DNA of 64,000 nt from positions 17,992-81,991 of IMG/VR virus record IMGVR_UViG_3300046534_001193; one strand, written 5' to 3'. The DNA is from a virus. Under the pieces are notes generated by a model. It ran no database searches. It was not told where the DNA came from and saw only the letters and a list, made by a program, of their open reading frames with translations. A program made the translations under genes and the position numbers. Of the stretch, positions 7,089-62,295 are shown piece by piece; position 1 is the first letter of the stretch; each line of letters starts with the position of its first letter.

Positions 7089-7098
7089 TTGTAAACAA
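7089..7098. promoter_or_regulatory. TTGTAAACAA palindromic motif upstream of capsid-like ORF
   Basis: A copy of the dispersed TTGTNNACAA motif, followed by GTT, 47 bases before the ATG of the small capsid-like ORF. No convincing -10 box pairs with it on this strand. It could be an operator or the edge of a weak promoter for the gene that follows the terminator. A second copy, TTGTCAACAA, lies at 7372-7381. Confidence 0.45.
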
Positions 7099-7144
7099 GT
7101 TAGGTGTAGAGTAGAGATCTAATCGAGACAACCAAGGTGTATTT

Positions 7145-7351
7145 ATGAAACCAGTTAGCCTAGCAGAAAAATTTTCAGCGGAATCGCCAGATGACCCACG
7201 CTTCTTACGCCGACAAATTAAATCCTCAAGCTCTTATCCAGAGATTGAAAAATTCGTAGTGCGTCCTGCCAAAGTAGTTATGCTTGAACAGGACGAGTCT
7301 TTGAAGGGCGTGTTTGACGCTGCCTTTACTCTCATGCCTTTTAATGACTGA
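7145..7351 (+). CDS. stand-alone paralog of the capsid C-terminal domain
   Basis: A 68-residue ORF with an AAGGTG ribosome site. From residue 19 it aligns without gaps to the last ~50 residues of the major capsid protein: LRR.I..S.SY..IE.FV.R.A, then L...FD.AFT.M...D, about 21 identities in 49. The first 18 residues are unrelated to the capsid. The DNA after the stop repeats the capsid 3' flank (TGACTGACACTTAA, then 20 bp of terminator), so this is a partial tandem duplication that lost the terminator's left arm. It is shifted by four bases at the very end, so it stops at FND. The open frame and conserved core suggest it is kept by selection; its function is unknown. Confidence 0.75.
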   Translation: MKPVSLAEKFSAESPDDPRFLRRQIKSSSSYPEIEKFVVRPAKVVMLEQDESLKGVFDAAFTLMPFND

Positions 7352-7467
7352 CACTTAACAGCGGCTTTTTATTGTCAACAAGTCAATGGACATTAACTTG
7401 TTAAGCGGTTAGTATTAGTGAGCTTATGTTCAAACACAGGCCTAACCAATTAACCAGGATAAATAAT

Positions 7468-7782
7468 ATGTCGCGTTCTAAGCCTAATAAAGGGACTACC
7501 CTTAGCCTAGCCAAGGTGGAAAAAGAAGAAGCCGAAGCAGCTGACGCTAGGGCAGTTTTGGAAAAAGAAGAAGGTGAAGCTGCCGCAGCCAGAGCGGCTT
7601 TTGAAAAAGCTAAAGCAGCCAACACAATAAAAACAGTCACTTTATTGCTCGGCTCGCAAATAACTGACCCAGGCACTGGTGTAATTTTAGTAAAAAACAA
7701 AGCAGTAATAGTTCCAGAAATTTCTAAATGGGTTAGAATGCAAGCTGGATTCACACCTCCTTACTTAACTTTTACGGAGTAA
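7468..7782 (+). CDS. head-tail region protein with charged helical N-terminus, unknown
   Basis: A 104-residue protein starting at an ATG with an AGGAT site; an upstream in-frame ATG at 7426 lacks one. Residues about 14-50 are an Ala/Glu/Lys heptad-like helix with a repeated EKEEAEAADARA pattern. The remainder is a compact domain ending in PPYLTFTE. The second half resembles small capsid- or neck-associated domains in being beta-rich, but I do not recognise a family. It begins the neck gene group. Confidence 0.6.
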   Translation: MSRSKPNKGTTLSLAKVEKEEAEAADARAVLEKEEGEAAAARAAFEKAKAANTIKTVTLLLGSQITDPGTGVILVKNKAVIVPEISKWVRMQAGFTPPYLTFTE

Positions 7783-7788
7783 TTAGAA

Positions 7789-8271
7789 ATGGCCAAATCT
7801 TTTTTAGGGCTAGTGACCGTAGACGAAATTCGCGGATCACTCGGGTTGGACGCAAAAGACATAAGCGATGCCATAATGGCTAGCCAATCACCTGAAAAAG
7901 ATTTGCAAGCTGATCTATTAACATGGGTTTCTACCTATCAGACTATAATTTCTGAAGGGGCCGCCACTACACCGACTACTGCGCAGACTCTGAAATATCT
8001 CAAGTTGCAAAACTATTCCAAATATTTCATTGCTGCCATATTCGCCTCTTCTGGTATGGTCTCAATATTTCAGAGTATGTCTGATGGGAAGAATCAATTT
8101 ACACGATTCTCTAATGGTTCATTGAAAGATCTCCAGCTGGACCTAAAATCAAAGGCTGCATCGGCGAGATCTGAATTAGAGGCCCTAATCGATCCTGATC
8201 AAGTAGCTACTTACACCCAGTTTTCTCGGGTGGTTTCTTCTTACGACCCAGTCACAAACGCAACTACCTAA
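7789..8271 (+). CDS. head-tail connector (adaptor) candidate
   Basis: A 160-residue, mainly helical protein starting six bases after the preceding gene, with its stop overlapping the next start (TAATGG). In siphophages the first genes after the capsid encode the adaptor that docks to the portal, and size and helicity fit that role. No family motif is recognised, so the call is positional. Confidence 0.55.
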   Translation: MAKSFLGLVTVDEIRGSLGLDAKDISDAIMASQSPEKDLQADLLTWVSTYQTIISEGAATTPTTAQTLKYLKLQNYSKYFIAAIFASSGMVSIFQSMSDGKNQFTRFSNGSLKDLQLDLKSKAASARSELEALIDPDQVATYTQFSRVVSSYDPVTNATT

Positions 8272-9161
8272 TGGATCTCCGCAAAGTCGCTGCCTTTTTT
8301 GAAACCACAGAATTCGACGCCTACGACGAAAGCGATAACTCGTGGGACGCGTGTTTTCTGTTAGGCAAGGTTATGCCGATAGAGAGCGAAGTGTCTAATT
8401 CAAATCGAAACACTCGCAGAGCTTTGCTTGGTACAGACCCTTTGGCAGTTTTTCCCGCCTCTAATACTCTCAGAGTTTTAACTTCTGGCGACATCTACAT
8501 AGTAGGTGACCTGCGTAAGGACTATCAAAACTCTGCTGCTTACGATCAATCAGGCTTGCTTCACCGCAGCAGTACGGTAGGCACGATAAATCGTCGTGCG
8601 CCTTCGGGCCCCTCAACAGACCCTGGTTGGTTAGTTGAGACTTTGATTAGCACTCACTACATGGATATAGAGCTACGGGCGGTTAAAGAAGCTGGAGAGC
8701 AAGAGCAGCAATTTGACAAGCAGTATCTTATTATTATGCCTTTGCACGCTGCCCCTCAGCAGTGGGACCGTATCAATGTGGGCAGTTACGACCATATTGT
8801 TGAGGCTGGATATGTTGACAGTGGATTTAAGTTAGCCAGAGTAGCCAACCGACTCGACCCTCGTAAAGATTTTACTTACTATAGCCGTGGCGACACAGCG
8901 TCTTTTAATCCTAGCAATGGCGTAGTCACCTCAGGACTAACGCCTTACAACGTTACAGGTTTTGCGCTTGATGCAAAGTCTGGGCAGGTTGCAAACACTG
9001 CAGCCAAAAGCGGCACATTCACGTTGGTAGTCGATAAAACTCACATCGGCGTTGTGCCGACTTCGAAAGATGAAGTAATTTGGGAATCCCAAAGATCTAA
9101 AGTTATTGAAGTCGAAGAAGATTTTATTGACTTTCAATATAAGATACACTGCTCATTATGA
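8271..9161 (+). CDS. neck / head-closure region protein, unknown
   Basis: A 296-residue protein coupled to both neighbours (start overlaps the upstream stop, stop overlaps the downstream start). The composition is beta-rich with many aromatic residues, and the C-terminal third (TFTLVVDKTHIGVVPTS) looks like a small beta domain. It lies between the adaptor-like gene and the tail-completion genes, so a head-closure or stopper role is plausible. It is larger than typical stoppers (about 110 residues), so it may carry an additional domain. Confidence 0.55.
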   Translation: MDLRKVAAFFETTEFDAYDESDNSWDACFLLGKVMPIESEVSNSNRNTRRALLGTDPLAVFPASNTLRVLTSGDIYIVGDLRKDYQNSAAYDQSGLLHRSSTVGTINRRAPSGPSTDPGWLVETLISTHYMDIELRAVKEAGEQEQQFDKQYLIIMPLHAAPQQWDRINVGSYDHIVEAGYVDSGFKLARVANRLDPRKDFTYYSRGDTASFNPSNGVVTSGLTPYNVTGFALDAKSGQVANTAAKSGTFTLVVDKTHIGVVPTSKDEVIWESQRSKVIEVEEDFIDFQYKIHCSL

Positions 9162-10010: not shown

Positions 10011-10044
10011 AAATTCTAACTCGCCAAAAATACTAAGTTTTAGG

Positions 10045-11377: not shown

Positions 11378-11422
11378 AAACAAAACGTCAATAAGTTGCT
11401 TGAACTTATTGACGTTTTGTTT
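11378..11422. other. 20-bp perfect inverted repeat (hairpin) in the tube-chaperone intergenic region
   Basis: Arms at 11378-11397 and 11403-11422 are perfectly complementary over 20 bp with a 5-base loop (GCTTG). The outer part is A/T-rich, the core is ACGTCAATAAG. It lies 12 bases after the T-run of the tube terminator. It could be a second, bidirectional terminator (T-rich right arm), an RNase III site that processes the transcript, or a protein-binding site. Confidence 0.9.
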
Positions 11423-11461
11423 TAGACTAATTTTTCAATACTACACCAGAGGATTTTAATT

Positions 11462-15200: not shown

Positions 15201-16596
15201 TAAAGCGATAGTAGCAGAAGAATTGGCACTAAAAACTTTGTTAGCCACTTTTAAAGTTAAACCGCCTGTCGACGTTATAAAAGGCACTGCTGAAGCTTTT
15301 AAATCCGCCACAGCAGATATAGAAGCCACGACTCAGGCAGCAATACTGACTCAGCAACACCTACAAAAGATGGGGCAGTCTACGCCTACAGAGACTTTGC
15401 TGGCTGGCATTGCTACGACTAGAGACGGTTTGCGTGAAATGAATGCCGAGTTTGAGAGTCAGCGCGAAATCTTGCTGGCTGCTCAAGCTGCAAAGCAGAA
15501 AATATTAGATACTGTAACAGTAGATCAGGGTAAAGCTGAGTCCACTACGGGTGCAAAGCTGCTCACAGACGCTAACGACGAAATTAATAAAATTAAAGCA
15601 GCTATAATCGAGCTAGAGCAGAAATCGACTGAACAGACTAACTCTTATAATCGGGACCTTTTATCTCAAATTAGGTCGGTCGATCAATTGGCTGATGCTA
15701 AAGCCAAAGCGGCTGCTGCAGATGCCGCAGCATCTGTCGACGAAAGCGCTAAACGCGAAGCCGAAAGGAAAAAAGGAGTTGCCAGTGCAGGAGGTAGCCT
15801 GCTAAACGATCTTTCTTCTCCATCTGCAAGGCTCCAAGCTGAGGAAGTAGAAAAACTTAAAATACTTGAACAATTTCGCGTATTAGAAATGCAGGCAGTT
15901 TCAGGCCAGCACAAGCAGGAGATGGCTATTGAAGCCGAGTTTTCTTCCTTAAAGTTGCAAATTAGACAGCAAACTTTAGATGCCCTAGCGGCAATAGAAA
16001 GCGAAGCTATAAACAAGTCCATTTCTGCTTACGAGGACGAGGCGAAGGCTAAAGAATCTATAGAGCTACGAAAAACTCGTGCTGCGTTAAACGGATTTTC
16101 TTCGCTCACTTCTGAAGGCGCTAAATCTAGCAGAAAGATGTTTGAGTTAAATAAAGCGATCAACGTGGCCAGCATCATAGCCGATACACCTGCAGCTATC
16201 TCTGGTGCGGCTAAATGGGGTTACTCTTTAGGCGGCACACCTGGGGGCATCGCGGCAGGTCTTGCAGCTGCAGCCAACCAAGCTGCATTGCTAAGGCAGG
16301 CTAGCTCGGCTTCTTTCGGCGCGTCTTCGTCAGTTTCTGCGCCTGCTACTGCCACTGCCGCCACACCTGAGACGCCAGAGATAGTCGTACCGCTCGCTAG
16401 CGACTCACTTGTAAACCAATCTACTTCAGCTAGATCTCAAGCGTCCGCACTTCAGCAGCGACCGCAAGGCGACGTAAACATAACTTTAAGCGCTAGTTCA
16501 GTTGATACAGAAGGCATGAGTGAACTCTTACTTAGGCAAGCACCGGTAATTGCGAGTATAGTAAGAGAATCTCAAGCAGAACAAGGTATCTCATAA
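12283..16596 (+). CDS. tail tape measure protein
   Basis: A 1437-residue protein with the TP901-type tape-measure core at about residues 330-640 (AELENSMQRVYAVTG, then TEVAQGAIRFAQAG, GTSLRRGMVNLLNPT). It has a hydrophobic stretch near 660-730 and long coiled-coil segments to the C-terminus. At the usual ~1.5 angstrom per residue the tail would be roughly 200 nm long. Residues 98-226 contain three tandem 43-residue repeats (separate entry). The C-terminal part (about 1270-1345) contains a Gly/Ala-rich hydrophobic segment. It follows the G/GT chaperone genes, which fixes the identification. Confidence 0.92.
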   Translation: MAFDINLNTRIARAQVIGLNRSIVNLARAADKSSVKMQAALGGGFGGTAQLKGIETAVYSVKNSLISMAASQRMTANAAVSGQTRTRIAVEETLLSTAKAATETIKGKNLISNAYIKEGAIIEASNNAKKLSEARVQTEQAKTAAETIKGKNLTTGAYIREGSIIEASNNAKRLSEARVGTQEAKTATETIKGKNLTTGAYIKEGAIIEASNNAKRLSEARVQTQQAKTATETVRAKRIETAAAAANAAAAQAAAARIIAAQRRTDAALLSSQTRSMAATTVAGFNSANQGAAALRSTLGALGASFGIFSASTLLVATSTFMLVRAFKSTVTVGAELENSMQRVYAVTGSLGQIAGEVTPAMQMLSSAVRDVAKGTIFTSTEVAQGAIRFAQAGFSAANTASALNATAALATIGMTDMGQAANTVTSILNSFGLEATALQGVVDTMAVAVTGSMLNITQLSSALSYIGPLAKETNTSFTETVIILELMADAGVKASKAGTSLRRGMVNLLNPTSRQMGVLRELNVSTNKASGEMRSMLDIAKDLATEGITPAQLSLLFGARAVAAWTQVINEANGKMITFIDAQKDIAGTSLVLRRQLEQNLTDQFKLLVSAVQEVQQVLFEQFGPRLTELVVGFKDWVTEIGNSREELVAMATAAYDTARTLAAGGAIVAAAAFAFSKYKLAVGTAAVTAAVGGLNKALLVTKILLLGIVKNPIIATLLTASAVFAYFRRSVEDSSGATQEQIEATKELVQSQKDLADASEKAGLAVTRIGYLEAAEGLRLATQATVAKKRAVNDLAEAQVVAANKESKAIADLTARAMRGGMPLGMVQPRVFTPADDFVVTQQTVRQQAIAETNLALEKQLELTFGGREATLAGRMQNLQSGRQRNLPNAANAQRFQQMAQDSVPDGGMPQQRAARIAAEVNALTKDAASNLILFDREIKKVTESTYNLRVERMKVSGVYLDSPEQRKAHTKAIVAEELALKTLLATFKVKPPVDVIKGTAEAFKSATADIEATTQAAILTQQHLQKMGQSTPTETLLAGIATTRDGLREMNAEFESQREILLAAQAAKQKILDTVTVDQGKAESTTGAKLLTDANDEINKIKAAIIELEQKSTEQTNSYNRDLLSQIRSVDQLADAKAKAAAADAAASVDESAKREAERKKGVASAGGSLLNDLSSPSARLQAEEVEKLKILEQFRVLEMQAVSGQHKQEMAIEAEFSSLKLQIRQQTLDALAAIESEAINKSISAYEDEAKAKESIELRKTRAALNGFSSLTSEGAKSSRKMFELNKAINVASIIADTPAAISGAAKWGYSLGGTPGGIAAGLAAAANQAALLRQASSASFGASSSVSAPATATAATPETPEIVVPLASDSLVNQSTSARSQASALQQRPQGDVNITLSASSVDTEGMSELLLRQAPVIASIVRESQAEQGIS
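12574..12960 (+). repeat. three tandem 129-bp repeats in tape measure gene
   Basis: Units start at 12574, 12703 and 12832 and encode 43 residues each, containing ETIKGKNL, AYIKEGAIIEASNNAK and LSEARVQT. A partial fourth start (AKTATETV) follows at 12961. The high nucleotide identity indicates recent unequal duplication that would change tail length in about 43-residue steps. Confidence 0.93.
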
Positions 16597-17198: not shown

Positions 17199-17839
17199 TG
17201 CCTAGAAAACTGGAATCTGAATCGATAACCGAGTTAGACAAAGACGGCCAATATGTTTTTCACATGGTCGAAATAATACTGGATGACGAAACACTTAGAT
17301 ATACCAATTCACATTCCGAAGTCTCGTATGAGAGTGAAACGTACACACCGTCTGGCAACCTGATAAGTTTTGGCGACGTTACTGAGACTGAGGCTTTAGT
17401 ATTAAACTCGATGGTCTTTAAACTGTCGGGCGTAGACTTGACGCTCTTTGCTCTAACCTTGCAGCAAGACATTGTGAATCGGAAAATAAACCTGTATCAA
17501 GGTCTTATCGATCCTGACACTTACGTAATTGTGCCGTCTCCAATTCGCGTCTATAGCGGCAAAGTTAAATCGATTAGTCTCCAAGAATCGCCTGGCGATA
17601 AGAGCGTGCTAACAGTCAACACTGCGTCAGTCTTGTCGGACTTTGATAAGACTACAGGCCGCAGGGCCAACTCCCAAGATCAAGAAATGTATTTAATTAT
17701 AAAAGGTCAGACAGATGCTGCCGATGCAGTCAGTCGCGGGATGGGTACTTTGGCAGGCGACGTCTTTACTCCAACTGTGGACAAAGGGTTTGACGAAGCC
17801 CACAAAAGCAACGTAGACGTTAAATGGGGCAGAGCTTAG
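17198..17839 (+). CDS. minor tail protein, gpL-like tail tip component
   Basis: A 213-residue protein whose N-terminus (YVFHMVEIILDDETLRYTNS) and pattern of alternating strands (SYESETYTPSGNLISFGDV) resemble gpL/DUF1833-type tail-tip proteins. It overlaps the next gene by 16 bases. In lambda, gpL and the hub gpJ assemble the tip at the end of the tube; gene order here (L-like, small gene, J-like) is the same. I see no iron-sulfur cysteines like those of lambda gpL. Confidence 0.65.
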   Translation: MPRKLESESITELDKDGQYVFHMVEIILDDETLRYTNSHSEVSYESETYTPSGNLISFGDVTETEALVLNSMVFKLSGVDLTLFALTLQQDIVNRKINLYQGLIDPDTYVIVPSPIRVYSGKVKSISLQESPGDKSVLTVNTASVLSDFDKTTGRRANSQDQEMYLIIKGQTDAADAVSRGMGTLAGDVFTPTVDKGFDEAHKSNVDVKWGRA

Positions 17840-23662: not shown

Positions 23663-23995
23663 TTACCTAATCCTCCACCTCATGCCAGCCCCAACATGGT
23701 CCAGAGTTGACTCAGGCTCAAAGTTAAAAGGCTCACCCACATTGTATTGCGAAAAGTGGGTGAGCTGAATAAAAAATCCGTTGTCCCATTCGTTTCTTAT
23801 TGAAATATAAGCGCCAATGCCACCGCCGTCATTCCAACAAATACTGCAAGCTGTAAGATTGCCGTTCTTGCCAGCGCCGATTTCAAAGTAAGTTTCTGAG
23901 TCAACTATTGATTTGATGAATCTGTCCTTGGCAGTTTCTGCCACCGCCGGCCCTGCAAACATTGTCAACAAAGCTGCTAATATTAATACTTTCAT
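23663..23995 (-). CDS. secreted / outer-membrane-like small protein (moron candidate)
   Basis: A 110-residue protein on the opposite strand to all genes around it. It has a clear Sec signal peptide (MKVLILAALLTMFAGPAVAE, cut expected after AVA or AEA-like site). The mature part (about 90 residues) has alternating strands (GGIGAYISIRNEWDNGFFIQLTHFSQYNVG, in pieces) ending with HVGAGMRWRIR, and two cysteines. The HFS.YN..G pattern is reminiscent of phage-encoded outer-membrane beta-barrel fragments of the acyloxyacyl-hydrolase/PagL type, but it is too short to be a full barrel. Surrounding intergenic DNA carries its own leader. Likely a host-altering accessory gene, for example receptor masking; this is inference. 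Confidence 0.7.
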   Translation of the reverse strand: MKVLILAALLTMFAGPAVAETAKDRFIKSIVDSETYFEIGAGKNGNLTACSICWNDGGGIGAYISIRNEWDNGFFIQLTHFSQYNVGEPFNFEPESTLDHVGAGMRWRIR

Positions 23996-24088: not shown

Positions 24089-24130
24089 TTGTTTACAAAA
24101 TGTTCAAACCTAATCTTTAGATTAAAGATT
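24089..24130 (+). promoter_or_regulatory. lysis-cassette regulatory region: TTGTTTACAA motif and inverted repeat
   Basis: ACTTGTTTACAA (24087-24098) is a + strand copy of the dispersed motif and provides a TTTACA -35. AATCTTTA-GAT-TAAAGATT (24112-24130) is a perfect 8-bp inverted repeat covering the expected -10 area. The first lysis gene starts 23 bases later. This suggests a controlled promoter for lysis timing. Confidence 0.55.
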
Positions 24131-37428: not shown

Positions 37429-38459
37429 TGCACTAGCCCTCTGTAATATTCATAAGTTTCTTCCAGATCCCCGCCCTTAAGCTGTTCGGCAATAACCTCT
37501 GGCAGCTTGTCAAAGTCGACCGTCTCAATTACTTGGTGGTCTTCACTGACAATGCGAACACTGTTGCGAATCATTAATACGCCTGGGTGCTGCCAATAGT
37601 GCTTAATAGCCTCAGCTAATTGCACACCTTTGTCAGCTGTTATTTCACCTTTGATATCGACGATTGTAGTCGTAGCATTTAGCTCTGGCAGCAAGTCTTC
37701 TGCGTTAAAGTCGATCTCTTGGTAGCAGGTCTCCATAGACCAAATCAAAGTCTTGTCTAGACTGGTAGGCGTCAAATCGTAGTAATACTTATCAGAGATG
37801 TCTGAAAAGCTGGTAGGGTGAGTGCAACCACAGATGACTAGTCTGCCGCCGAGCAATTGCCGAGGCTGATGCTCGTGCCCGAGAAAGATGTAGTCGCAGA
37901 TTGTTAGCAACTTCTCTGCTTGCACCTTAGTCAGATTAAGGCTGGTGTCGAGGCCTTGTGTGTGGCCATTCTCATAGTTGCAATGTAAGAAGACTGCGCG
38001 AAAGGTTGACTCGTCATGTGCATAATCCATCGACTCTAAGGCTGCGTCAAATAGCTCCTGCGAGCCGTGGTGAGGTACAAAGGCCAAAGACATGCCTTCA
38101 AGTTCACCGTACTCGACGTGATGGCTGGCGAAGTCAGGATTGATAAGAAAGCTAGTTTCGGGCAACATCTCTGCCAATAGATCCAGAGAACTAACACTTT
38201 CAGCTACATTTAAGCTGTCGTGGTTGCCCGCCAGTACAACATCGTAGTGCTTAGCCACCTTGGCAGCTTTTAATATATCGGCTTCTGAATTGGAGTAAGT
38301 GTCGAAAAGATCGCCTACGCAAACTTTCGCTTTCGGCTTGCCTGCGGTTACTGAGTGTAAGGCATTGTAGTGGATAGCCTCGGCCAATGCGGCTCGGGAG
38401 GCTTTGGTTGTATGTGACTTACGTTGCAGAGCCAAGTGTGGATCAGTGGATATTCTCAT
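37422..38459 (-). CDS. SbcD-like Mre11 nuclease subunit (gp47-like)
   Basis: A 345-residue calcineurin-type nuclease. Metal-binding motifs: DPH at residues 6-8, GDLFD at 49-53, GNHD at 78-81, LHCNY near 174 and GHEH near 196. It overlaps the SbcC-like gene by seven bases and the upstream DUF2528-like gene by four, so the complex is translated as a coupled pair. The product would give the 3'-5' exonuclease and endonuclease activity of the complex. Confidence 0.9.
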   Translation of the reverse strand: MRISTDPHLALQRKSHTTKASRAALAEAIHYNALHSVTAGKPKAKVCVGDLFDTYSNSEADILKAAKVAKHYDVVLAGNHDSLNVAESVSSLDLLAEMLPETSFLINPDFASHHVEYGELEGMSLAFVPHHGSQELFDAALESMDYAHDESTFRAVFLHCNYENGHTQGLDTSLNLTKVQAEKLLTICDYIFLGHEHQPRQLLGGRLVICGCTHPTSFSDISDKYYYDLTPTSLDKTLIWSMETCYQEIDFNAEDLLPELNATTTIVDIKGEITADKGVQLAEAIKHYWQHPGVLMIRNSVRIVSEDHQVIETVDFDKLPEVIAEQLKGGDLEETYEYYRGLVQC

Positions 38460-38818
38460 TTTATTTCCTTAGTCGGTAGTTGTACGGATTTCAGAAGGAT
38501 ATCCCCTGCGTCAAAACTCCAAGTGTCTACGCTGACCAGCCTAACTCCGAAATCGTCATTCAGAGCAGCCCACCCCTCAGCTTCTGCGAAATACGCAACA
38601 ATGCCAGATAGGCTGCGACTTTGAGACAGAGGTAGGATTTCTTGAGCTAGTGACCTCAAGTATGCCTTTTCAATGTCTCCGCCAAGTTCGTCCTCAATTC
38701 TTTCAGTGCCGCCAGCCCAGAACAAAAGCTGGTCTTTCATCCACTGCAAAGTATTTTCGTTGTAATTTATTTCTACAACTGCATCCCACCATTCGTAGTT
38801 AAGTGACACTCTTTTCAT
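38456..38818 (-). CDS. DUF2528-like phage protein
   Basis: A 120-residue protein, first gene of the operon driven by the promoter at 38.88 kb and coupled to the nuclease gene (4-base overlap). The pattern of EINYNENTLQWMKDQLLFW, then EGWAALNDDFGVRLVSVD with the closing 'F DAGDI' suits the DUF2528 family of phage proteins of unknown role. An unusual Trp-rich N-terminus (YEWWDAV) is noted. Family call moderate. Confidence 0.6.
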   Translation of the reverse strand: MKRVSLNYEWWDAVVEINYNENTLQWMKDQLLFWAGGTERIEDELGGDIEKAYLRSLAQEILPLSQSRSLSGIVAYFAEAEGWAALNDDFGVRLVSVDTWSFDAGDILLKSVQLPTKEIK

Positions 38819-38863: not shown

Positions 38864-38899
38864 ATAGTAGCCTAGCGGTTAAGTGTTTGTCAACAAGTT
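38864..38899 (-). promoter_or_regulatory. leftward promoter with AACTTGTTGACA -35 block
   Basis: Minus strand: TTGACA (38893-38888), 18-base spacer, TACTAT (38869-38864). The -35 is part of TTGTCAACAA and of a 19-bp block identical to the one at 54.26 kb. It overlaps the stop codon of the upstream resolvase gene. It would drive DUF2528-like, SbcD and SbcC. Confidence 0.82.
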
Positions 38900-43446: not shown

Positions 43447-44766
43447 TTATCTTCTTAGGAGTAATGCACTCTCTCGTGCTCTGCTTACGCCTACGTAAAG
43501 CAATTGATTGCGCTCTTTCATTCTCGGGTTTTTGAATACGTCATCCACGTCTAAGAATACGTTGCCGTAACTAGAGCCTTGAGAACGGTGGATAGTCATT
43601 GCGTGTGGTGACTGCAGGTTTGCGAAGCTATCTTTAAAATTCCAAAAATCTGACCACTTGCGACCTTCTACCTTGGCTGCAGCTCCAAGCTTTTCGAGCA
43701 TAGCTTTGTAATCCCGCGCACTGTCTTCGTGTAAGATGTAGGCACAAGTTGACACGCCCCGTTCGGAAAGCAGGAGAACTTCCCAGACTGTAAACTGAAT
43801 AGTCATACCAGAGTACAAGGGGTGAAGCGCTTTGGTTATTGATAAGACTTTCAGCTCTTCGTCAGTGTGGGCTACAATCTCGGGCTTAGGGTCGGTTATG
43901 TCGCCCACTAAAGCAGATCGGGTTAGAACCCTCTCACCTTGGATAAAAGGAGTCTTAGTCTCCCCGACTAGCAGGCGCCTAAGACTTTTATTCAGAGAGT
44001 CGACTCTCTTGTTAGTCCATGCCAAGCATCTAAATGAGTCAGGGTCATCGCGGTATTCATCTGATAAGAAGTTCTCTTTAACACAGTTGTACCAATCGAC
44101 TGCGCCTAAGACGTAGATACCTTGATCTAATTTGGAGTTTATTTTGTTTACAAACTTGGTCGTAGATTTTCCTTCAATTATGTCATTGCGCAACGACTCG
44201 GTTAATTCTAGAATAGGGTTTCCAGTAACCTGCCTGCGGTTCTCAGTCAGGTGAAACATCTGGTCAGCCTGCTCAAAAGCCTGCGACTTTACCTCTTTTA
44301 CCGGAGGTATCTGATATTTGTCACCCATTACGATAACTTTAACCCTGTCCAATATGGCAGCCTCTCGAAGGTGTGTAACGACATTCTTATTTAGCATAGA
44401 GCCCTCGTCGACTACAACTAAATCCATGTCACCAAAACCTCCTTGCGACATCTTCTTGGCCATTTTAATTTCGCCGTTGCTATCCAATACCATACCCAAC
44501 AGAGAATAGATTGTTCGGCACTCAACATTGATGCCGTAGTCCTCAGCCATAGTGTTTAAGACTTTTACAGCTTTGTGAGTAGGCGCGGTTAAACAGACCT
44601 TAATGTTCGGGTGAGATTTTTGCAGATTTTTTATGACTCGCTGAATTGTGTAAGTCTTGCCTACACCAGCCCAGCCAGTCAGAACGAAGAAAAGCTCACC
44701 AACAGCCTTGTAGAATTTTATCATAGCGTCAGCAACTTCTTGCTGATCGGGTTTTAAGTCTGACAT
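43447..44766 (-). CDS. Dda/PIF1-like SF1B DNA helicase
   Basis: A 439-residue helicase. Walker A GWAGVGKTYT begins at residue 31; motif Ia is LTAPTHKAVKVL; Walker B is LVVVDEGSML near 115; motif III GDKYQIPPV near 150; the C-terminal motifs end in AMTIHRSQGSSYGNVFLD and LYVGVSRARESALLLRR. This is the layout of T4 Dda, which loads on ssDNA at forks and moves 5'-3'. It sits between the polymerase and the 44.8-kb gene, in a replication operon. Confidence 0.9.
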   Translation of the reverse strand: MSDLKPDQQEVADAMIKFYKAVGELFFVLTGWAGVGKTYTIQRVIKNLQKSHPNIKVCLTAPTHKAVKVLNTMAEDYGINVECRTIYSLLGMVLDSNGEIKMAKKMSQGGFGDMDLVVVDEGSMLNKNVVTHLREAAILDRVKVIVMGDKYQIPPVKEVKSQAFEQADQMFHLTENRRQVTGNPILELTESLRNDIIEGKSTTKFVNKINSKLDQGIYVLGAVDWYNCVKENFLSDEYRDDPDSFRCLAWTNKRVDSLNKSLRRLLVGETKTPFIQGERVLTRSALVGDITDPKPEIVAHTDEELKVLSITKALHPLYSGMTIQFTVWEVLLLSERGVSTCAYILHEDSARDYKAMLEKLGAAAKVEGRKWSDFWNFKDSFANLQSPHAMTIHRSQGSSYGNVFLDVDDVFKNPRMKERNQLLYVGVSRARESALLLRR

Positions 44767-45701: not shown

Positions 45702-45764
45702 CCCCTTAATCAAGGGGTGACGCAAGTGTAAACAAGTTAAATATGTAATGCAACTTGTTTACAA
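45702..45764 (-). promoter_or_regulatory. promoter, operator motif and 5'-end hairpin of the 44.8-kb gene
   Basis: Minus strand order: palindrome TTGTAAACAA (45764-45755), TTGCAT (45753-45748), 17-base spacer, TACACT (45730-45725), then CCCCTTGATTAAGGGG, a 6-bp stem with a four-base loop, at 45717-45702, about where the mRNA should begin. A second AACTTGTTTACA lies at 45738-45727. The same arrangement lies before the helicase paralog, with a different stem sequence. Confidence 0.6.
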
Positions 45765-46700: not shown

Positions 46701-46762
46701 CCTTCTATGAAGGGGTGACACAATTCTAATTTAGCTGGCTTCACAATGCAACTTGTTTACAA
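46701..46762 (-). promoter_or_regulatory. promoter, operator motif and 5'-end hairpin of the helicase-paralog gene
   Basis: Minus strand: TTGTAAACAA (46762-46753), TTGCAT (46751-46746), 17-base spacer, TAGAAT (46728-46723), then a CCTTC/GAAGG stem with a TAT-type loop at 46713-46701. This is a diverged copy of the leader at 45.7 kb. Confidence 0.65.
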
Positions 46763-49256: not shown

Positions 49257-52067
49257 TTACAATGTCTCAATAAACATGCTAGTTTCTATCCCTCGTTTCT
49301 CCATTCCTGCAACGTCAAAGGCCACTAATTTTCTAGCGCCATCGCCCAAATCCACATGAGTACAGATCTCGCGGAAGAATTCCTCCTGCTCTGCCAGAAC
49401 TTTAAATTGCACCATTGATTTTATATACACCGTCTCGCCTGCAATTCTAGCCCATCGAGTGTACTGTCTGTGGCAAACTGCCATGTCTAGGTAGAGTACG
49501 CCACCGGTCATCAGGTAGTTCTTGCCTGGAATCAAAGCAAATGAGATGTCTTGGTCGTAAGCGTTGGCCATCAAGGCCATTTCAGATAGAACAATGACCA
49601 TCTCAGTTCGAGACTTCTCAACTCTGACAGTCTCCAAAGTCTGCTGTAGGTTGTCGATAACTGTCTTGCACATAAAGTCGGTCTTCTCGTCGATGTAATC
49701 TTGGTCTAACCCGATAGTCTTCAATGTTTTACCGAAAAACATTATTCCAGTTAAGACCGTTTGGTAAGAAAATTGTGGTCTAGGGCCAATTTCTTTAGGC
49801 ACCACGTCTTTGAAAGATGCCATCGTGTTGGATACCCATTCAGGGTGAGTACCTAAGCTAGAGAACACCAGCGCTCTGGCCAATTGTGAAAGTAGGTGCT
49901 TGTTATCAATAACGTGATGATAGTTATCGGTAGCACCTTCCCGCTCTCGGCCTGACTTCTTAATGTTAAGTTGTATCATGCGTTGCCGCAACGAAGGTCT
50001 GTCGGGACTCTGCTCAGACATTATGCAAAGAGGCGCCGATATCACATTCTCCATCACTCGCGCACCGGTCATCTGAACACCGCCGACCGAGCCGCTCGCT
50101 ATTCCACCTTTGGCAAATGCTTGCTTGTTCCAAGCCGCCTTAAAGATTCCTACGAACTGGTTAAATTTACTTTCGGGTATCTCTGACTGGTTAAATTCTT
50201 CTATCAATCTCACGACAGAAGTAGAGGTCGAGCAATATTGTGATGCCGCCCAAGGTGTAGTGCCCTGCAATGACATTGGAGATTGTTCCAACATGTAATC
50301 GATTCCATGCAGATAAGCAAACAAGGTGCTGATCGAGGACTTGCCGCATTCAGCATTTCCCCACAAATTCAGCAAAGGGAACTGGTTGTCACGCATTGTC
50401 AGCTGTACTTTTATGTGGCACAGGGATAGCCATCCAATCAATGTCGAGGTAACTAAAGGGTCGTTGGACCCGATTAATTTATCTATGAGTTCCATCAATT
50501 CTTCGCCTGGTTCTGGGTACGCCGCACTCTTAATGTCGGGAGGGGCCGGTATGTCACCCCATATTTCGTGAGTGTTTAGCTCTTTGTTCGATGCCATTGA
50601 GAAGCCTGGCTCTACGTAAACAAATATAGTAGAGTTGGCTACTTTGTAATGGTGTATTCCTACTTTCTTAACGTGAGTTAATTCTGTCATTGCTGATTCA
50701 TCCGCAAATAATTTGTTCTTCAGTTTTTGTAGATCAATTTCGTTACCATAGAACGCATAGTTACTTTTTCCCCGTATTGACTGCTTAAAAGCCCGAGCGC
50801 TATCCCACGTATCTTCAAGAAAAGTTAGCTTTCCTCGTTTGTGTCCGTTCATTTTGACTATCGCGTGTGAGCCTACTCGAGTCTCAGTGTCAGTGCCGTC
50901 TTCGCTGACCTCTGAAAACTTGCTGACTACATCTAAAGTGAAGGTAGTCAGACGTCTACGGTATTTGCCCTCTCCGACAAAGTAACCCTGCGGTGTCTCA
51001 GTTATGTCGCTAATTTCTTCGAAGTTTTCTGGTATCACCTCGCCGTCTTCGACCGTACCGTTGCAGATCACGCAATCTCTACAAGGCTCTATCACTGAAA
51101 ATAGCATCGCTTTAGAGAAGCCGTATTGCTTAGAGCTGGCCACATAATTGACCATCTTCTTTAACTCTGCAAACCGAGCGAATTCACTCTTGTAGCTAGA
51201 AGACTTGACGTTCTTAGCCATAGCTTGAGCATGCTTAACCCAATCTTTTACGCCTGCCCGCACCATGTAAGCTGCGAACTGGATCGACGCCTGATTAAAA
51301 TTAGCGCCGGATTTAGTGTCGCCGTTCTCAATCAACAAGTTGATGCACTGAGGCAGCTTGCCGTCTGCGGTGACAGTCTTGCTTAGTTCATTGTCAGGTA
51401 CAAATACTAAAGCACTGAGCGCCTTTTGCTTTTTCTGCATCTTAATCTTAGCAGTTTCGTACAAGGTCTGAAACCGAGTCGAAGTCACAGGCTGGACAGC
51501 TTGCAACTCTTGACGTGGCGCCTCAGTCAGCTGCGCGTATTTCTCGACAGTCAACTCTTCCAGCTCTTTCAAAGAGATCGGTACTTTGTACTTGCCATTG
51601 TCTTTGCGCTTAACATTAGCAGTGCGCAATAGCCTAGGCTTGCCTTGGTTGTAAACAGCCATGTCAATACCATTGACGTACAATTCTAAAGCCATCTCTT
51701 TGTAGATTAGCGGCAGAGATTTTACTGGCCGGTCTTTGGCAAAGGTAGTCATAGGGATTATGAAGTGAAACCCTTTCTTACCCGACAAGTATATTGCGTA
51801 AGTGTTAACGCCAAGATCTTGCAGCTTGTCAGAGAATTTTCTGGCGCTGTCCATCGCTAACTGAGGCTCTCCATCTAAGTCGATGTCGACGTAGAACGGA
51901 CCTTTGTAGCTGCTGTCGTATTTATCGTCTTCAGAGTCTAAAGGCTCTTTTATCGATATGACTGATTGTAGGCCTACTTTCCTGTCTGCTAAATCTTTTA
52001 AGGCCTCAACGCTTTCTAACACGTAAGACCAAGGGGCATCAGGTCTTTCTTGGTAATATATAAACAC
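49257..52067 (-). CDS. PrimPol-helicase (AEP primase fused to AAA+ helicase)
   Basis: A 936-residue replication enzyme. The AEP catalytic DxD is D61-I-D63 in FYVDIDLDGE, motif II is SGKKGFHFI with H101, motif III includes D135 (NGIDMAVYN) and the basic RTANVKRKDNGKY. A Cys cluster (CRDCVICNG) lies near 335. The C-terminal helicase has Walker A GNAECGKSS (near 568), conserved MSEQSPDRPSLRQRM near 680, and a helical end. Such fusions prime and unwind phage forks, like P4-alpha- or D5-type proteins. The helicase part has a stand-alone paralog at 45772-46668. Confidence 0.85.
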   Translation of the reverse strand: MFIYYQERPDAPWSYVLESVEALKDLADRKVGLQSVISIKEPLDSEDDKYDSSYKGPFYVDIDLDGEPQLAMDSARKFSDKLQDLGVNTYAIYLSGKKGFHFIIPMTTFAKDRPVKSLPLIYKEMALELYVNGIDMAVYNQGKPRLLRTANVKRKDNGKYKVPISLKELEELTVEKYAQLTEAPRQELQAVQPVTSTRFQTLYETAKIKMQKKQKALSALVFVPDNELSKTVTADGKLPQCINLLIENGDTKSGANFNQASIQFAAYMVRAGVKDWVKHAQAMAKNVKSSSYKSEFARFAELKKMVNYVASSKQYGFSKAMLFSVIEPCRDCVICNGTVEDGEVIPENFEEISDITETPQGYFVGEGKYRRRLTTFTLDVVSKFSEVSEDGTDTETRVGSHAIVKMNGHKRGKLTFLEDTWDSARAFKQSIRGKSNYAFYGNEIDLQKLKNKLFADESAMTELTHVKKVGIHHYKVANSTIFVYVEPGFSMASNKELNTHEIWGDIPAPPDIKSAAYPEPGEELMELIDKLIGSNDPLVTSTLIGWLSLCHIKVQLTMRDNQFPLLNLWGNAECGKSSISTLFAYLHGIDYMLEQSPMSLQGTTPWAASQYCSTSTSVVRLIEEFNQSEIPESKFNQFVGIFKAAWNKQAFAKGGIASGSVGGVQMTGARVMENVISAPLCIMSEQSPDRPSLRQRMIQLNIKKSGREREGATDNYHHVIDNKHLLSQLARALVFSSLGTHPEWVSNTMASFKDVVPKEIGPRPQFSYQTVLTGIMFFGKTLKTIGLDQDYIDEKTDFMCKTVIDNLQQTLETVRVEKSRTEMVIVLSEMALMANAYDQDISFALIPGKNYLMTGGVLYLDMAVCHRQYTRWARIAGETVYIKSMVQFKVLAEQEEFFREICTHVDLGDGARKLVAFDVAGMEKRGIETSMFIETL

Positions 52068-52501: not shown

Positions 52502-52531
52502 AGTATGGCGGGTATCTTCAGTGCTTGTCAA
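52502..52531 (-). promoter_or_regulatory. leftward promoter for the primase operon
   Basis: TTGACA (52531-52526), 18-base spacer, CATACT (52507-52502) on the minus strand. The -35 lies in AATTGACAAG, a weaker copy of the dispersed motif. Confidence 0.68.
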
Positions 52532-54238: not shown

Positions 54239-54274
54239 ATATTACCAGCCAGCGCTCTTCTTTGTCAACAAGTT
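54239..54274 (-). promoter_or_regulatory. leftward promoter with 19-bp conserved block
   Basis: TTGACA (54268-54263), 18-base spacer, TAATAT (54244-54239). The block TTTGTCAACAAGTTATCTC is identical to that at 38.89 kb and covers the stop codon of the upstream gene. Confidence 0.82.
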
Positions 54275-55655
54275 ATCTCAATGTTAGCTCTACTTCCTCA
54301 CGAATAAACTCATCTTCCAGTATTTTTGCCTGTGCTTCGGGTGTGTCTGCGTTGATCTTTGTTGACAAGTGAAGCAAATCTTCTGCACTGAAACCTCTGC
54401 GCATCAGGTCAGGGATTCTACTTATTGGCATAAGCGCAATGTCATCCAGCATACACTCGACTTCCCACTCTTCCAAAGTTTTGCTGACGAAAGCTTTCTC
54501 TACCTCGTCGAATACCGTTATTCTGATTGGCCTGACGGGATCTAAATCGTCCCCACAGTCGAACAAGTAGTCAGTATTAAAGTCACCCTTTCGGCTGGCT
54601 GCGCTTGGTGCGGCGTCTCGAACAACGGTGTCAAAACTGCCTGAGAAAATGAACTTGGTAATAGCAGCAGACTGTTCTTCTGCCTCTGCTTCTTCGGTTT
54701 TCTCAGCCCTGAGTTCTGCTATATCTTCTTCGCTGGTGTGCCTGGCTGAGACGGCATCGGTGTATTGCTCAGGCGATAAGCCTAAGTTGCTAGGCTGTTG
54801 CAGTCCTGCTAGTTGCGTATCGCAAGTACCCGCCAGTATATCATTCGACGTCAGCACTAGGAGGGAGGAATACCACCGCTGGGCGCCTTCTTTAGTGCTT
54901 CTTACGTCTTGCAAGGTTAAGCCTTTTGCGCGTGCCTTGGACGGCTTAGCCTTCTTCTTATTTCGGGGATTAGCGAGGATTTCTGCATCTTCTGCCAAAC
55001 TTTCTGAGTAGAGAATGCCACGAGTCGGCAGGTAGAGCAATTGCACTGTATCTTTGGTGTACCGATAATTAGCGATAAGGTTCAGTCCTATCCACTCTTG
55101 CTCTGCGCTGCCATGTCTGACCAGCTTCGGATTATCAATCAGGTCGACCAGCTCGTCATCGTAGGTTTCCATAGATTTAAAGTAAGTCCCCGAGTCGATA
55201 GAACCGTGCTGCAAGGCTCCCATTCTTTCCCGACTAACACCTCGCCTATTCGACAAAGGTTTGAACCTGCCTGTGTAATTTACAGTTGTAAAGTTAGCGT
55301 CAGGCGACATGTACAACGGCGAGATTCTAGATAGCTTAGGCACTATTACGTAGTCATAATCAATTGCGACATCCGTTGCGAAATTTTGGTACTTAAGCGC
55401 CAAGTATCCTGCGTTCAATTTAGGCACGCTGGCTTTCTTAGACTCACCGATTAGCTCTCCCATCTCCATCAAAAAATAGTCGTAACCGTACTTGCAGTGT
55501 GTCGGCTCAGACTGTTTAAGAGCAACAGCTCTAATTAAATCTGTATCAGAAGTAGGGCAAACATCTAAGTCCAGCCACCTAAAGTCACAACGTTCTGGGC
55601 ATAAGCTTGTCAGGTTGCGCCACTGGAAGTAGAGAGTGTCGGAGTCTATTATCAT
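54273..55655 (-). CDS. hypothetical 460-aa protein
   Basis: The longest unassigned gene of the leftward module; its start overlaps the stop of the 55.7-kb gene. The N-terminal 150 residues are mixed beta/alpha with Cys (SLCPERCDFRWLDLDVCP). The middle has a lysine/arginine-rich patch (NPRNKKKAKPSKARAKG, residues about 232-248), then an acidic coiled segment (EEDIAELRAEKTEEAEAE) and a final acidic domain with DEVEKAFVS. No catalytic motif is recognisable. Possible DNA-transaction role given its neighbours. Confidence 0.6.
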   Translation of the reverse strand: MIIDSDTLYFQWRNLTSLCPERCDFRWLDLDVCPTSDTDLIRAVALKQSEPTHCKYGYDYFLMEMGELIGESKKASVPKLNAGYLALKYQNFATDVAIDYDYVIVPKLSRISPLYMSPDANFTTVNYTGRFKPLSNRRGVSRERMGALQHGSIDSGTYFKSMETYDDELVDLIDNPKLVRHGSAEQEWIGLNLIANYRYTKDTVQLLYLPTRGILYSESLAEDAEILANPRNKKKAKPSKARAKGLTLQDVRSTKEGAQRWYSSLLVLTSNDILAGTCDTQLAGLQQPSNLGLSPEQYTDAVSARHTSEEDIAELRAEKTEEAEAEEQSAAITKFIFSGSFDTVVRDAAPSAASRKGDFNTDYLFDCGDDLDPVRPIRITVFDEVEKAFVSKTLEEWEVECMLDDIALMPISRIPDLMRRGFSAEDLLHLSTKINADTPEAQAKILEDEFIREEVELTLR

Positions 55656-59806: not shown

Positions 59807-59837
59807 TTTTATTAGTTAATTTTAAAGTTTGTTTTAC

Positions 59838-60107
59838 CTACGTAACTGCGCCTATAACTTTTTCTATTGCTATAGAAACCTTTGCACCAAATATAGAACC
59901 GCTGACAGTACCGATGATGTAGGGAAGTAATAACCAATAAGTTAAATCTGCGGTTACTAATTCATGCATAGTTAAAAACCAAATTCCATTACTAAAAACA
60001 GAACATATTGCGTGATAAGTCATGTTATTCCTGTTTCTAGACCTGGAAACCATCGTAAAAGAAACGTTCTGGACAAAAGCTAATAAAAGTATTGTTAAAA
60101 TAGACAT
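59838..60107 (-). CDS. conserved phage membrane protein, 89 aa
   Basis: Three hydrophobic segments (residues 2-18, 33-52, 55-80) around the sequence TMVSRSRNRNNMTYHAICSV, which is found in small membrane proteins of many phages. The start has GGAGA. Unknown role; membrane protein in early region. Confidence 0.68.
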   Translation of the reverse strand: MSILTILLLAFVQNVSFTMVSRSRNRNNMTYHAICSVFSNGIWFLTMHELVTADLTYWLLLPYIIGTVSGSIFGAKVSIAIEKVIGAVT

Positions 60108-60147
60108 TTCTAATTCTCCGCTGTACCCTTATTTTTGATACTGGTAG

Positions 60148-60306
60148 TTACTTGACACTAACACACATGTACCAACCTGGCAGATGTGACTTGTCATCGA
60201 AAGATACCCAACCATTAACAATGAGAATAGCCATTACAAACACTATCAGCACCACCGACTCGGTAATCTTGGTTCGAATGCTGCGTGTCTTAATTGGGTT
60301 ATCCAT
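60148..60306 (-). CDS. small single-TM protein, 52 aa
   Basis: ATG 60306 with GAGAGGG seven bases before it. Residues about 17-32 (SVVLIVFVMAILIVNG) are one TM helix, the rest is polar and ends CVSVK. In the first position after the 60.37-kb promoter. Confidence 0.65.
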   Translation of the reverse strand: MDNPIKTRSIRTKITESVVLIVFVMAILIVNGWVSFDDKSHLPGWYMCVSVK

Positions 60307-60345
60307 GGTCATTCCCTCTCAATTCTTAGTTGGTCTTGAGCTGAC

Positions 60346-60377
60346 ATAATCAGCCTTGGGGGCTGACATGTCAACAA
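60346..60377 (-). promoter_or_regulatory. leftward promoter with AACTTGTTGACA -35 block
   Basis: TTGACA (60374-60369), 17-base spacer, GATTAT (60351-60346) on the minus strand. The block continues ATAACTTG at the upstream side. Confidence 0.68.
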
Positions 60378-60398
60378 GTTATTTAATTATTTTTAAGT

Positions 60399-60719
60399 TC
60401 AGTGCAATCCGCTTGGGCGGTGTAATTTTATTTTCAATTCATTCTGCATTTCAAGTCTCAGCTCGAGCATTTGAACTTCTGGCTGGTCGCGTAGATCTCT
60501 CAGTTGCTCTTTAAGGTCTGCTATTTCAGCCTCTTGCTGGACTCCTGTCGACGTTAACAAAGTTATGTGGTCTTCCAGCTTCAGTATTTGAAACTTATGA
60601 AGATCCTCAATCGAGTGGTGGGACTGGGACCCACCCTCCAGTTCAATCAGCTGCGGTTTATGGGAACAATTAACCCTTAACCACACTAATACATCTAGAA
60701 AATTCACTCGGGCTTCCAA
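60399..60719 (-). CDS. coiled-coil protein, 106 aa
   Basis: N-terminal hydrophobic helix (NFLDVLVWLRVNC) then long coiled coil (QQEAEIADLKEQLRDLRDQ). Overlaps its upstream neighbour by 16 bases. No signal for export. Unknown role. Confidence 0.58.
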   Translation of the reverse strand: MEARVNFLDVLVWLRVNCSHKPQLIELEGGSQSHHSIEDLHKFQILKLEDHITLLTSTGVQQEAEIADLKEQLRDLRDQPEVQMLELRLEMQNELKIKLHRPSGLH

Positions 60720-60949
60720 CCCTTCGGCATCTTTGCAGTGGCACTGCCTGCTAAATCCTCAGCGTCTTTAACAGGTCTCACCCTAGCTGACTCGAGTGCT
60801 GCCGCAGTTAAGGCTAAGGAGGCTGCAAACTCACGTACCTTAGGTGCGTCGTCAGGGTGACACCAAATCTTCGGGTGCCTCAACCCTGCGGCGACGCGTC
60901 TATTTTTGTATGCTTCAGTCGTTAAAGCAGTTTTTGATCTCTCGGTCAT
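60704..60949 (-). CDS. small basic protein, 81 aa, possible DNA binder
   Basis: ATG 60949 is chosen over an ATG 72 bases upstream, because the latter overlaps the terminator-promoter element. The pattern NRRVAAGLRHPKIWCHPDDAPKVREFAASL resembles short ribbon-helix-helix-type proteins of phages and plasmids. Could be the regulator of the motif promoters, but this is a guess. Confidence 0.55.
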   Translation of the reverse strand: MTERSKTALTTEAYKNRRVAAGLRHPKIWCHPDDAPKVREFAASLALTAAALESARVRPVKDAEDLAGSATAKMPKGWKPE

Positions 60950-60973
60950 AATCAGGTTCTCTTTTATTAGTTT

Positions 60974-61021
60974 TAAAAAATGGGGCTTGAGTTTAAGCCC
61001 CTGACTTATTTTTGTCAACAA
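60974..61021 (-). terminator. terminator nested with promoter
   Basis: Minus strand: GGGGCTT, 6-base loop, AAGCCCC, A and six T (61001-60974). The AACTTG-like motif TTGTCAACAA (61012-61021) provides TTGACA, and 17 bases later TAAACT (60995-60990) lies in the terminator loop. Upstream transcripts would be terminated while a new transcript starts just inside. Confidence 0.75.
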
Positions 61022-61045
61022 GTCCTTGTAGTTAAAGATAAAATG

Positions 61046-61438
61046 CTAAGCACTTGCACCAGAAAATAATGGGTCGGGCTCTTCGCCTAATGCTTCACCA
61101 GAAAATAATGGGTCGGGCTCTTCGCCTAATGCTTCACCAGAAAATAATGGGTCGGGCTCTTCGCCTAAAGCTTCCATCCTGTCTTCGTACAAGTGCATCG
61201 CTGACAGGTCTCTACGCTCTTTGACTGAGCGACGATGTTCTCGGTGGTACGCCATATCGCAAAGGACGCACTTTTTACTGCTAGCGTAGCGCACTGTGAC
61301 TCCAGAAGCGTGGTGAGAGTCATCTTCGCAGAGTTCGCCTAGCAAATATCTTGAGGGTAGCGGCGTAACACCGGTTGCCCACCTGGTAATTCTTTTACGC
61401 ATATCTGTCACGGGATAATCAAAGTTTACATTTTCCAT
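61046..61438 (-). CDS. hypothetical protein with three C-terminal EALGEEPDPLFSG repeats
   Basis: A 130-residue protein. The first 85 residues have CVLCDMAYHREHRR (a possible zinc pair with C37) and a basic patch. Then three identical 13-residue acidic repeats close the protein. The repeats are identical at the DNA level. Unknown function. Confidence 0.68.
   Translation of the reverse strand: MENVNFDYPVTDMRKRITRWATGVTPLPSRYLLGELCEDDSHHASGVTVRYASSKKCVLCDMAYHREHRRSVKERRDLSAMHLYEDRMEALGEEPDPLFSGEALGEEPDPLFSGEALGEEPDPLFSGASA
61058..61174 (-). repeat. three 39-bp tandem repeats
   Basis: Units 61058-61096, 61097-61135 and 61136-61174; the third differs by one base near its end. They keep the reading frame. 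Confidence 0.95.
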
Positions 61439-61464
61439 TTTTAACCACCTCTTTGCTTGTTAGT

Positions 61465-61626
61465 TTAAAAACACTGGGAATTCTTGCCTTTGCCTCGCTT
61501 CTGCTGACGCCAGTAGGGCCGGTCAACACGTTTTAATATAAGTGCCGGAACCCAACTAGGTTGAGCCTGAATAATCATAACTTGGTTTAGCAATGTGCTG
61601 GCTTTGGACCTTGTTGGGATCGACAT
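61465..61626 (-). CDS. small basic protein, 53 aa
   Basis: ATG at 61626 with CGGAGA six bases before. Residues 1-30 are hydrophobic to amphipathic (LLNQVMIIQAQPSWVPALIL), the rest very basic (RPYWRQQKRGKGKN). It fills a gap between two operon genes. Confidence 0.6.
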   Translation of the reverse strand: MSIPTRSKASTLLNQVMIIQAQPSWVPALILKRVDRPYWRQQKRGKGKNSQCF

Positions 61627-61638
61627 TTTAATCTCCGG

Positions 61639-61968
61639 TTACTTAAATAGTTCTAGGTTTAACATGCGGTTAGAAAAGAAAAATGCTTTTTCGCAGTCGC
61701 GCAATGCGGAGTTATTTGCTTTTACATTACCTTTTCGTTCAGCGGCTTTACGCCATATCGCTTTGAAAATATTAGACTCGTGAACTGTCATGTCCAACGC
61801 TTCCATTATATCTAAGCACTCCGCACTGTATGCCGCGCCTAATGATACAGGGTGTGGAATATGTGTAATGTAGTAAGACGAACTTAAACCTGAGTCTTCA
61901 ATTTTAATTTTTACTTTCTTTTTGGACTGTTTGCCGTGTGAGTTTGCAGTAGTTGCTATAGTTGGCAT
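61639..61968 (-). CDS. hypothetical 109-aa protein
   Basis: Start ATG 61968 with AGGAG. A basic N-terminus (KQSKKKVKIKIED) precedes a helical domain (AYSAECLDIMEALDM, IFKAIWRKAAERKG). No family recognised. It abuts the WYL_2-like gene. Confidence 0.6.
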   Translation of the reverse strand: MPTIATTANSHGKQSKKKVKIKIEDSGLSSSYYITHIPHPVSLGAAYSAECLDIMEALDMTVHESNIFKAIWRKAAERKGNVKANNSALRDCEKAFFFSNRMLNLELFK

Positions 61969-61972
61969 AATT

Positions 61973-62236
61973 TTAGTTCTCCTCAATAGTTGTAACACTA
62001 TCAAGGCGAAAAGATCTCCATCCGCCATCGTCAATAGACCAGACAGCGATAACGTCGGGGTTAGGGGCCTTAGCCTTTACAGGTGACAAAGCCGCTGCAT
62101 CAGCAGGTGGAAGAGGCGGTAGGTGCTTGGCATTCAATGTGCACTTCATCACTCGAAGGTCGCCATTTGCTTTCTTGAACGTGACTACTTTGATGTCAGT
62201 TTGAAGTAGCTCGGTCATTTCTTTTTTATTTAACAT
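61973..62236 (-). CDS. WYL_2 / DUF2693-like SH3-fold protein
   Basis: An 87-residue protein with the pattern KVVTFKKANGDLRVMKCTLN, then PNPDVIAVWSIDDGGWRSFRLDSV, typical for the Sm/SH3-like DUF2693 (WYL_2) family encoded by many phages, often regulators or DNA binders. It is the first gene after the 62.29-kb promoter. Confidence 0.78.
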   Translation of the reverse strand: MLNKKEMTELLQTDIKVVTFKKANGDLRVMKCTLNAKHLPPLPPADAAALSPVKAKAPNPDVIAVWSIDDGGWRSFRLDSVTTIEEN

Positions 62237-62266
62237 TTTGCTTTCCTGGTTGATTAAAGAAACTTG

Positions 62267-62295
62267 ATATTAAGGTGAGGGGCTGAGCTTGTCAA
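62267..62295 (-). promoter_or_regulatory. leftward promoter
   Basis: TTGACA (62295-62290), 17-base spacer, TAATAT (62272-62267) on the minus strand. Its -35 lies in GGTTGACAAG, a shorter form of the dispersed motif. Confidence 0.8.

Follow-up and report, generated by a model that had tools for sequence, protein, structure and literature searches.

Does a short sequence that recurs in the gaps between a phage's genes mark the binding site of one regulator, or is it a favoured spelling of a promoter? The question is raised by a near-palindrome, AACTTGTT(G/T)ACAA, which is dispersed across the gene gaps of a tailed-phage genome of 82 kb and often forms the -35 box of strong early promoters. A sequence-only reading of this DNA had interpreted it as the mark of a phage regulon tied to leftward promoters. 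The window considered here is the whole stretch analysed, 64,000 bases corresponding to bases 17992-81991 of an IMG/VR record of 81,991 bases; positions refer to the window unless given as record positions.

Genome setting and enrichment of the motif

The structural genes of this phage run rightward, while its replication and repair genes run leftward from 64 kb down to 35 kb, in a module that includes SbcCD, a Dda-like helicase, a primase, a DNA helicase and a methyltransferase and that carries on into the first 15.7 kb of the record. No phage record matches the first 25 kb of the window at the DNA level, and a DNA polymerase query yielded no related contig. Distant kin are recognizable by terminase (36%) and DNA polymerase (about 39% identity), namely the Vibrio phages SHOU24 and K449, and also Pseudomonas phage Lana. 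Several other features of the layout were observed. Window 45772-46668 matches the later part of the profile of primase family phrog_16345, of which a full primase lies at 49257-52067, suggesting that gene 45772 is a split primase or a partial primase duplicate. An in-gene tandem repeat of about three copies of ALGEEPDPLFSGE, at about 61050-61150, encodes the C-terminus of protein 61046-61438. A leader, AACTAAGAG (often AACTAAGAGAACTAATATTATG), recurs upstream of several consecutive small early genes (record 4626-5424, window 54203) and is a predicted ribosome-site cassette common to those genes. The sequence TTGYGTCACCCC stands at three leftward gene starts (window 45714 and 46712, record 15772) and is possibly a second promoter or leader element; at record 15772 it offers a possible -35, with TATAAT 17 bases on.

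Aligned copies give a full motif of AACTTGTTKACAA with a palindromic core, TTGTNNACAA. The 82 kb record contains 13 copies of the core where 2.2 are expected, and the window 11 where 1.6 are expected, a count reached by none of 100 dinucleotide shuffles. On a hand-made map of 123 genes, by which 7.4% of the record is noncoding, 9 of the 13 copies are noncoding (p = 3e-8), where simulated noncoding DNA gives 0.27, and one more copy overlaps gene 38890 at its end. This enrichment is specific to one spacing, since TTGT-N2-ACAA has 13 copies whereas N0, N1 and N3-N11 have 0-4 each, with at most one noncoding. Among 4+4-base palindromes with gaps of 0-12 and at least three noncoding copies, TTGTNNACAA shows the most unequal noncoding/coding placement, and in an unbiased test of noncoding words of 7, 8 and 9 bases, CTTGTTGAC, ACTTGTTGA, CTTGTTTAC and their kin rank at the top. 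One motif thus occupies many separate noncoding places beyond chance, although the copies are not all independent because some were spread by local duplication (45.7/46.7 kb; 7058/7372; three promoters that contain GTCAGTCCC). A C precedes TTGT in 11 of 13 copies and an A follows ACAA in 11 of 13, an asymmetry that is partly built in because the alignment orientation was picked by the left flank.

The eight full copies listed by the earlier reading are all exact, and its list lacked three further exact copies, at 23962, 44144 and 54359, all of which lie in genes and are near the number expected by chance:

23962..23971, no strand assigned: exact copy inside a signal-peptide coding region, probably chance
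44144..44153, no strand assigned: exact copy inside the Dda-like helicase gene, probably chance
54359..54368, no strand assigned: exact copy inside gene 54273-55655, probably chance

The weight-matrix scan that the same reading had called for used a matrix built from ten sites, with a best control score of 12.7. Across the record it returned those ten sites above the control and also detected four others, which score 14.2-18.3 and all lie at gene boundaries. A variant, ACTTGTTGACTT, lies at record ~8625, leftward, with TATAAT downstream; its promoter and those at record 5677 and 11232 have a common core.

Sites within and beside predicted promoters

The copies form two classes according to the K position of the motif. 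Class A sites (K = G) have the consensus -35 hexamer TTGACA within the palindrome. A -10 box follows 17-18 bases on at seven of the eight sites (CATAAT twice, TAATAT twice, TACTAT, GATTAT and TAAACT), and when -10 boxes were tested at 16-18 bases for all eight, the combined p was 6e-4. These seven sites have the composition of sigma-70 promoters (TTGACA, 16-18 bases, a TATAAT-like box) and are predicted to be promoters whose elements the motif overlaps. At each, the next start codon lies 56-71 bases downstream of the motif; six point leftward and one rightward. The class A sites are as follows:

38864..38896, minus strand: AACTTGTTGACAA with -35 TTGACA, 18-base spacer and -10 TACTAT, ahead of 38456-38818 and the SbcD/SbcC genes
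54239..54271, minus strand: AACTTGTTGACAA with 18-base spacer and -10 TAATAT, leftward, ahead of 53898
60346..60377, minus strand: one mismatch, AACTTGTTGACAT with spacer 17 and -10 GATTAT, leftward, ahead of 60148
60990..61021, minus strand: GACTTGTTGACAA with spacer 17 and -10 TAAACT, leftward, ahead of 60704-60949
record 5677 and 11232, leftward: copies in the first 18 kb of the record
record 15923, rightward: copy ahead of the gene at 16000
7372..7381, minus strand: eighth copy, TTGTCAACAA, where the 3' end of the capsid gene is partially duplicated; no -10 box found

The site at 60990..61021 overlaps a terminator-like hairpin at 60982-61001. The duplication around the eighth copy spans 7009-7425, where the 3' end of the major capsid gene recurs in part as gene 7145-7351, together with downstream sequence including the TTGTCAACA site; a one-mismatch copy at 7058-7067 is the sister of the copy at 7372.

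Class B (K = T) has the core TTGT(TT/AA)ACAA and comprises record 12113 and window 7089, 24089, 45755 and 46753, with a near copy at 45726. The five exact copies, with their TTTACA core, are not -35 boxes: no -10 box stands in register at 16-18 bases (combined p = 0.81). The presence of the motif where it does not serve as a -35 argues for a protein-binding site rather than a promoter word alone. The class B sites in the window are:

45725..45764, minus strand: pair formed by TTGTAAACAA at 45755-45764 and GTGTAAACAA at 45726-45735, the second copy lying over the -10
46723..46762, minus strand: TTGTAAACAA directly upstream of a putative leftward promoter, TTGCAT, spacer 17, -10 TAGAAT, identified by eye
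24089..24098, plus strand: TTGTTTACAA between a leftward signal-peptide gene and rightward lysis genes
7089..7098, minus strand: TTGTAAACAA (on the plus strand) after the major capsid terminator

The 45755 copy abuts a weak leftward promoter, likewise proposed by eye (TTGCAT, spacer 17, -10 TACACT), and has about 30 bases in common with the 46753 copy. Given these putative TTGCAT promoters, the palindrome centre would fall near -41.5 at both. The site at 24089 falls between the two boxes of a possible leftward promoter, TTGAAC-N17-TAAAGT, again picked out by eye.

Two promoters in the window provide a comparison. Both are sigma-70-like and lack the palindrome, so that its extension beyond the -35 hexamer is not a general promoter need:

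62267..62295, minus strand: TTGACA, spacer 17, TAATAT
52502..52531, minus strand: TTGACA, spacer 18, CATACT

These same two had been counted in the sequence-only reading as near matches, at 62289 (gggTTGACAA) and 52525 (caaTTGACAA), and are better described as ordinary TTGACA promoters; its other near matches, at 45726 and 60368, are genuine copies with one mismatch. Consequently, of the six places in the leftward module where it had seen the palindrome fused to TTGACA, four stand (38887, 54262, 60368 and 61012, with spacings of 17-18) and two are plain promoters. The 19 bases that it found identical at 38.89 and 54.26 kb, GAGATAACTTGTTGACAAA, were confirmed by reading. The proposed dispersed regulatory site at early promoters is well supported by the intergenic enrichment, the N2 spacing, the position over the -35 and the two relatives described below, but it is not confined to leftward promoters: one copy forms the -35 of a rightward promoter, beside the five exact copies with no -35 role.

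Conservation among relatives and the search for a regulator

Two contigs, here G001 and G002, are close relatives of this phage (terminase 64%, capsid 68-69%). In the gap after the G001 capsid gene, the terminator and a 13-base block, TTGTAAACAAGTT, are kept while the surrounding bases align poorly; this block covers the class B site at 7089, which follows the capsid terminator. In G002, an exact AACTTGTTGACAAA lies in a gene gap at 1206, with a matrix score of 22.6 against a control of 14.8, and a second copy, AACTTATTGACAAA, lies at 638. Among 49 related virus records scanned, the extended motif occupies a meaningful place only in these two, which are the nearest relatives at 64-69% in terminase and capsid. 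The motif is not enriched in more distant relatives, whose matches are near the control level. When IMG/VR was scanned for the motif coupled to a -10 box, at least 120 stretches came up, with one match each among the matches listed, which is chance level. Ahead of the terminase operon, both this phage and G002 have a related promoter, AACYTTTTGACAAA, in which the palindrome is broken; the same sequence is also present in a bacterial metagenome assembly contig (L251) encoding a 68% identical capsid protein. As a separate observation, a long inverted repeat, AAAACGTCAATAAGTT / AACTTATTGACGTTTT, occupies the same gene gap at about 11380-11430 of the window and at 17772-17806 of G002 (L121), and its arms differ between the two phages by a matched change of T-A to C-G; it may be a bidirectional terminator or paired half-operators.

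In the Vibrio relatives SHOU24, K449 and VP505, TTGTNNACAA is not enriched to a comparable degree. Instead, they carry exact copies of a perfect 15-base palindrome, TTGGTCTNAGACCAA: 33 in K449, 12 in SHOU24 and 11 in VP505 (phiVP505_23LXQ). These lie mostly in early-module gene gaps with no fixed promoter around them, and in the leading module of K449, a start codon with ribosome-site-like sequence lies 11-66 bases downstream of 28 of 31 copies. Both motifs are thus dispersed palindromes in the early-gene gaps of distantly related phages; TTGGTCTNAGACCAA, however, is different and longer, and its copies sit immediately before ribosome sites instead of covering -35 boxes. It has the look of a dispersed operator, a stoperator or an RNA element not described before. 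No paper containing either motif was found in the literature searched.

We also looked for a protein that might read the sites. None of 84 small proteins scanned has a clear repressor-type HTH, tblastn revealed no small regulator common with the Vibrio relatives, and neither a GntR domain (PF00392) nor an integrase (PF00589) is present in the record. The sequence-only reading had named three small proteins, at 60704, 61973 and 245, for none of which was a link to the motif found. The protein at 61973 is a WYL_2 Sm-like protein. The other two are:

245..460, plus strand: 71-residue HTH-like protein in the terminase operon, adjoining the terminase gene, with homologs in both motif-bearing relatives
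60704..60949, minus strand: 81-residue orphan directly downstream of a class A site

The first is a candidate regulator, or else a small terminase or terminase-associated protein. The second is a candidate autoregulated regulator; it has no homologs in phages, IMG/VR, PHROGs or the PDB, and its AlphaFold model (pLDDT 64) is too poor for use.

Interpretation of the dispersed sites

Enrichment, spacing specificity, promoter geometry and conservation are all observed or computed directly. A binding site for a single regulator is very probable because the motif is scattered in gene gaps and often forms the -35 of early promoters. More specifically, we consider it rather likely that AACTTGTTKACAA, with its core TTGTNNACAA, is the operator of one dimeric phage regulator that blocks early sigma-70 promoters. 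One protein of phage origin would then read all of the sites. In class A, the operator would form part of the -35 of strong host sigma-70 promoters, so that a protein bound there would obstruct RNA polymerase and turn off these mostly early, replication-side promoters; repression through covering the -35 is the most likely action there. The class B sites, beside or inside weaker promoters, may be auxiliary operators or, at 45755 and 46753, where the centre would lie near -41.5, activator sites. Against this reading, no repressor-like protein was found in the record, and the asymmetric flanks would also fit a directional promoter element.

That last point leads to the possibility that there is no regulator, and that AACTTGTTGACAA is a lengthened -35 signature carried by the strong sigma-70 promoters, multiplied by duplication and only incidentally palindromic. 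Noncoding TTGACA hexamers are preceded by CTTG in 7 of 13 cases and by CCTG in 1 of 13, the broken-palindrome terminase-operon promoter AACYTTTTGACAAA is conserved in three phages, and the promoters at record 5677, 11232 and ~8625 have a core in common. We nevertheless judge it unlikely, since class B keeps both half-sites without a -35 role and one such site is conserved in G001, N2 is the only enriched spacing, and the plain promoters at 52526 and 62290 do without the extension. Chance or composition can hardly be the answer: it would suit the three in-gene copies, but the shuffles, the noncoding p value, the matrix scan and the N2 spacing refute it for the noncoding set.

Two further readings keep a regulator but change its identity. 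TTGT-NN-ACAA fits the TKGT/ACMA boxes, separated by 2 nt, of FadR-subfamily GntR regulators such as GntR and UxuR (PMC4494728), and the phage motif has such boxes within the 2- or 3-nt spacing range. As the phage has no GntR protein, a reader of this type would be the host's, adopted by the phage. This is distinctly doubtful: such regulators are metabolic, the phage motif has no metabolic gene context, and short palindromes of the same kind are read by other HTH families too. We know of no other phage that uses a host GntR-type regulator in this way. Alternatively, the sites may be immunity operators of a temperate or once-temperate phage. P1 C1 operators are known to overlap promoters. The P1 C1 operator, ATTGCTCTAATAAATTT, is short and asymmetric, and its 22 copies control many separate operons (PMC8546580); as here, a single short operator recurs throughout a phage genome of about 90 kb, over -35 boxes and in gene gaps. 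In cluster A phages, operator-stoperators of 13 bp, also asymmetric and in about 26 copies, are bound by the repressor of early lytic promoters (PMC9283540), and this motif too is asymmetric, 13 bases long and repeated across the genome. Both systems nevertheless differ from this one in sequence. P1, a temperate phage, has a known repressor and a known antirepressor, and no repressor was found here; the L5 site is not palindromic, and the L5-type repressor also stops elongation. The record lacks an integrase, as do the annotations examined for its closest named relatives, SHOU24, K449 and Lana, although plasmid-like lysogeny is still compatible, and overall we rate an immunity function as improbable. 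The architecture thus resembles P1 C1 operators and cluster A stoperators, and dispersed operators of this kind are known from P1 and L5; membership of the P1/L5 class is not claimed because neither a repressor nor a lysogeny function was found.

The single-regulator model can also be extended into a bolder scheme, which we regard as a long shot. A lytic lineage would run most of its transcription via one genome-wide operator, and the regulator that binds it, belonging to none of the recognized DNA-binding families, would repress over the -35 and activate near -41.5; its kin would have swapped the operator for TTGGTCTNAGACCAA, with operator and regulator exchanged across the family.

These data provide a concrete and testable regulon, with its sites, promoters and target genes, in a large phage group; for the transcription program of this group we found no description in the literature searched. 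The binding site also offers a way to seek a phage regulator. Moreover, the contrast with TTGGTCTNAGACCAA of the Vibrio relatives suggests a repeated reliance on dispersed operators in such phages.
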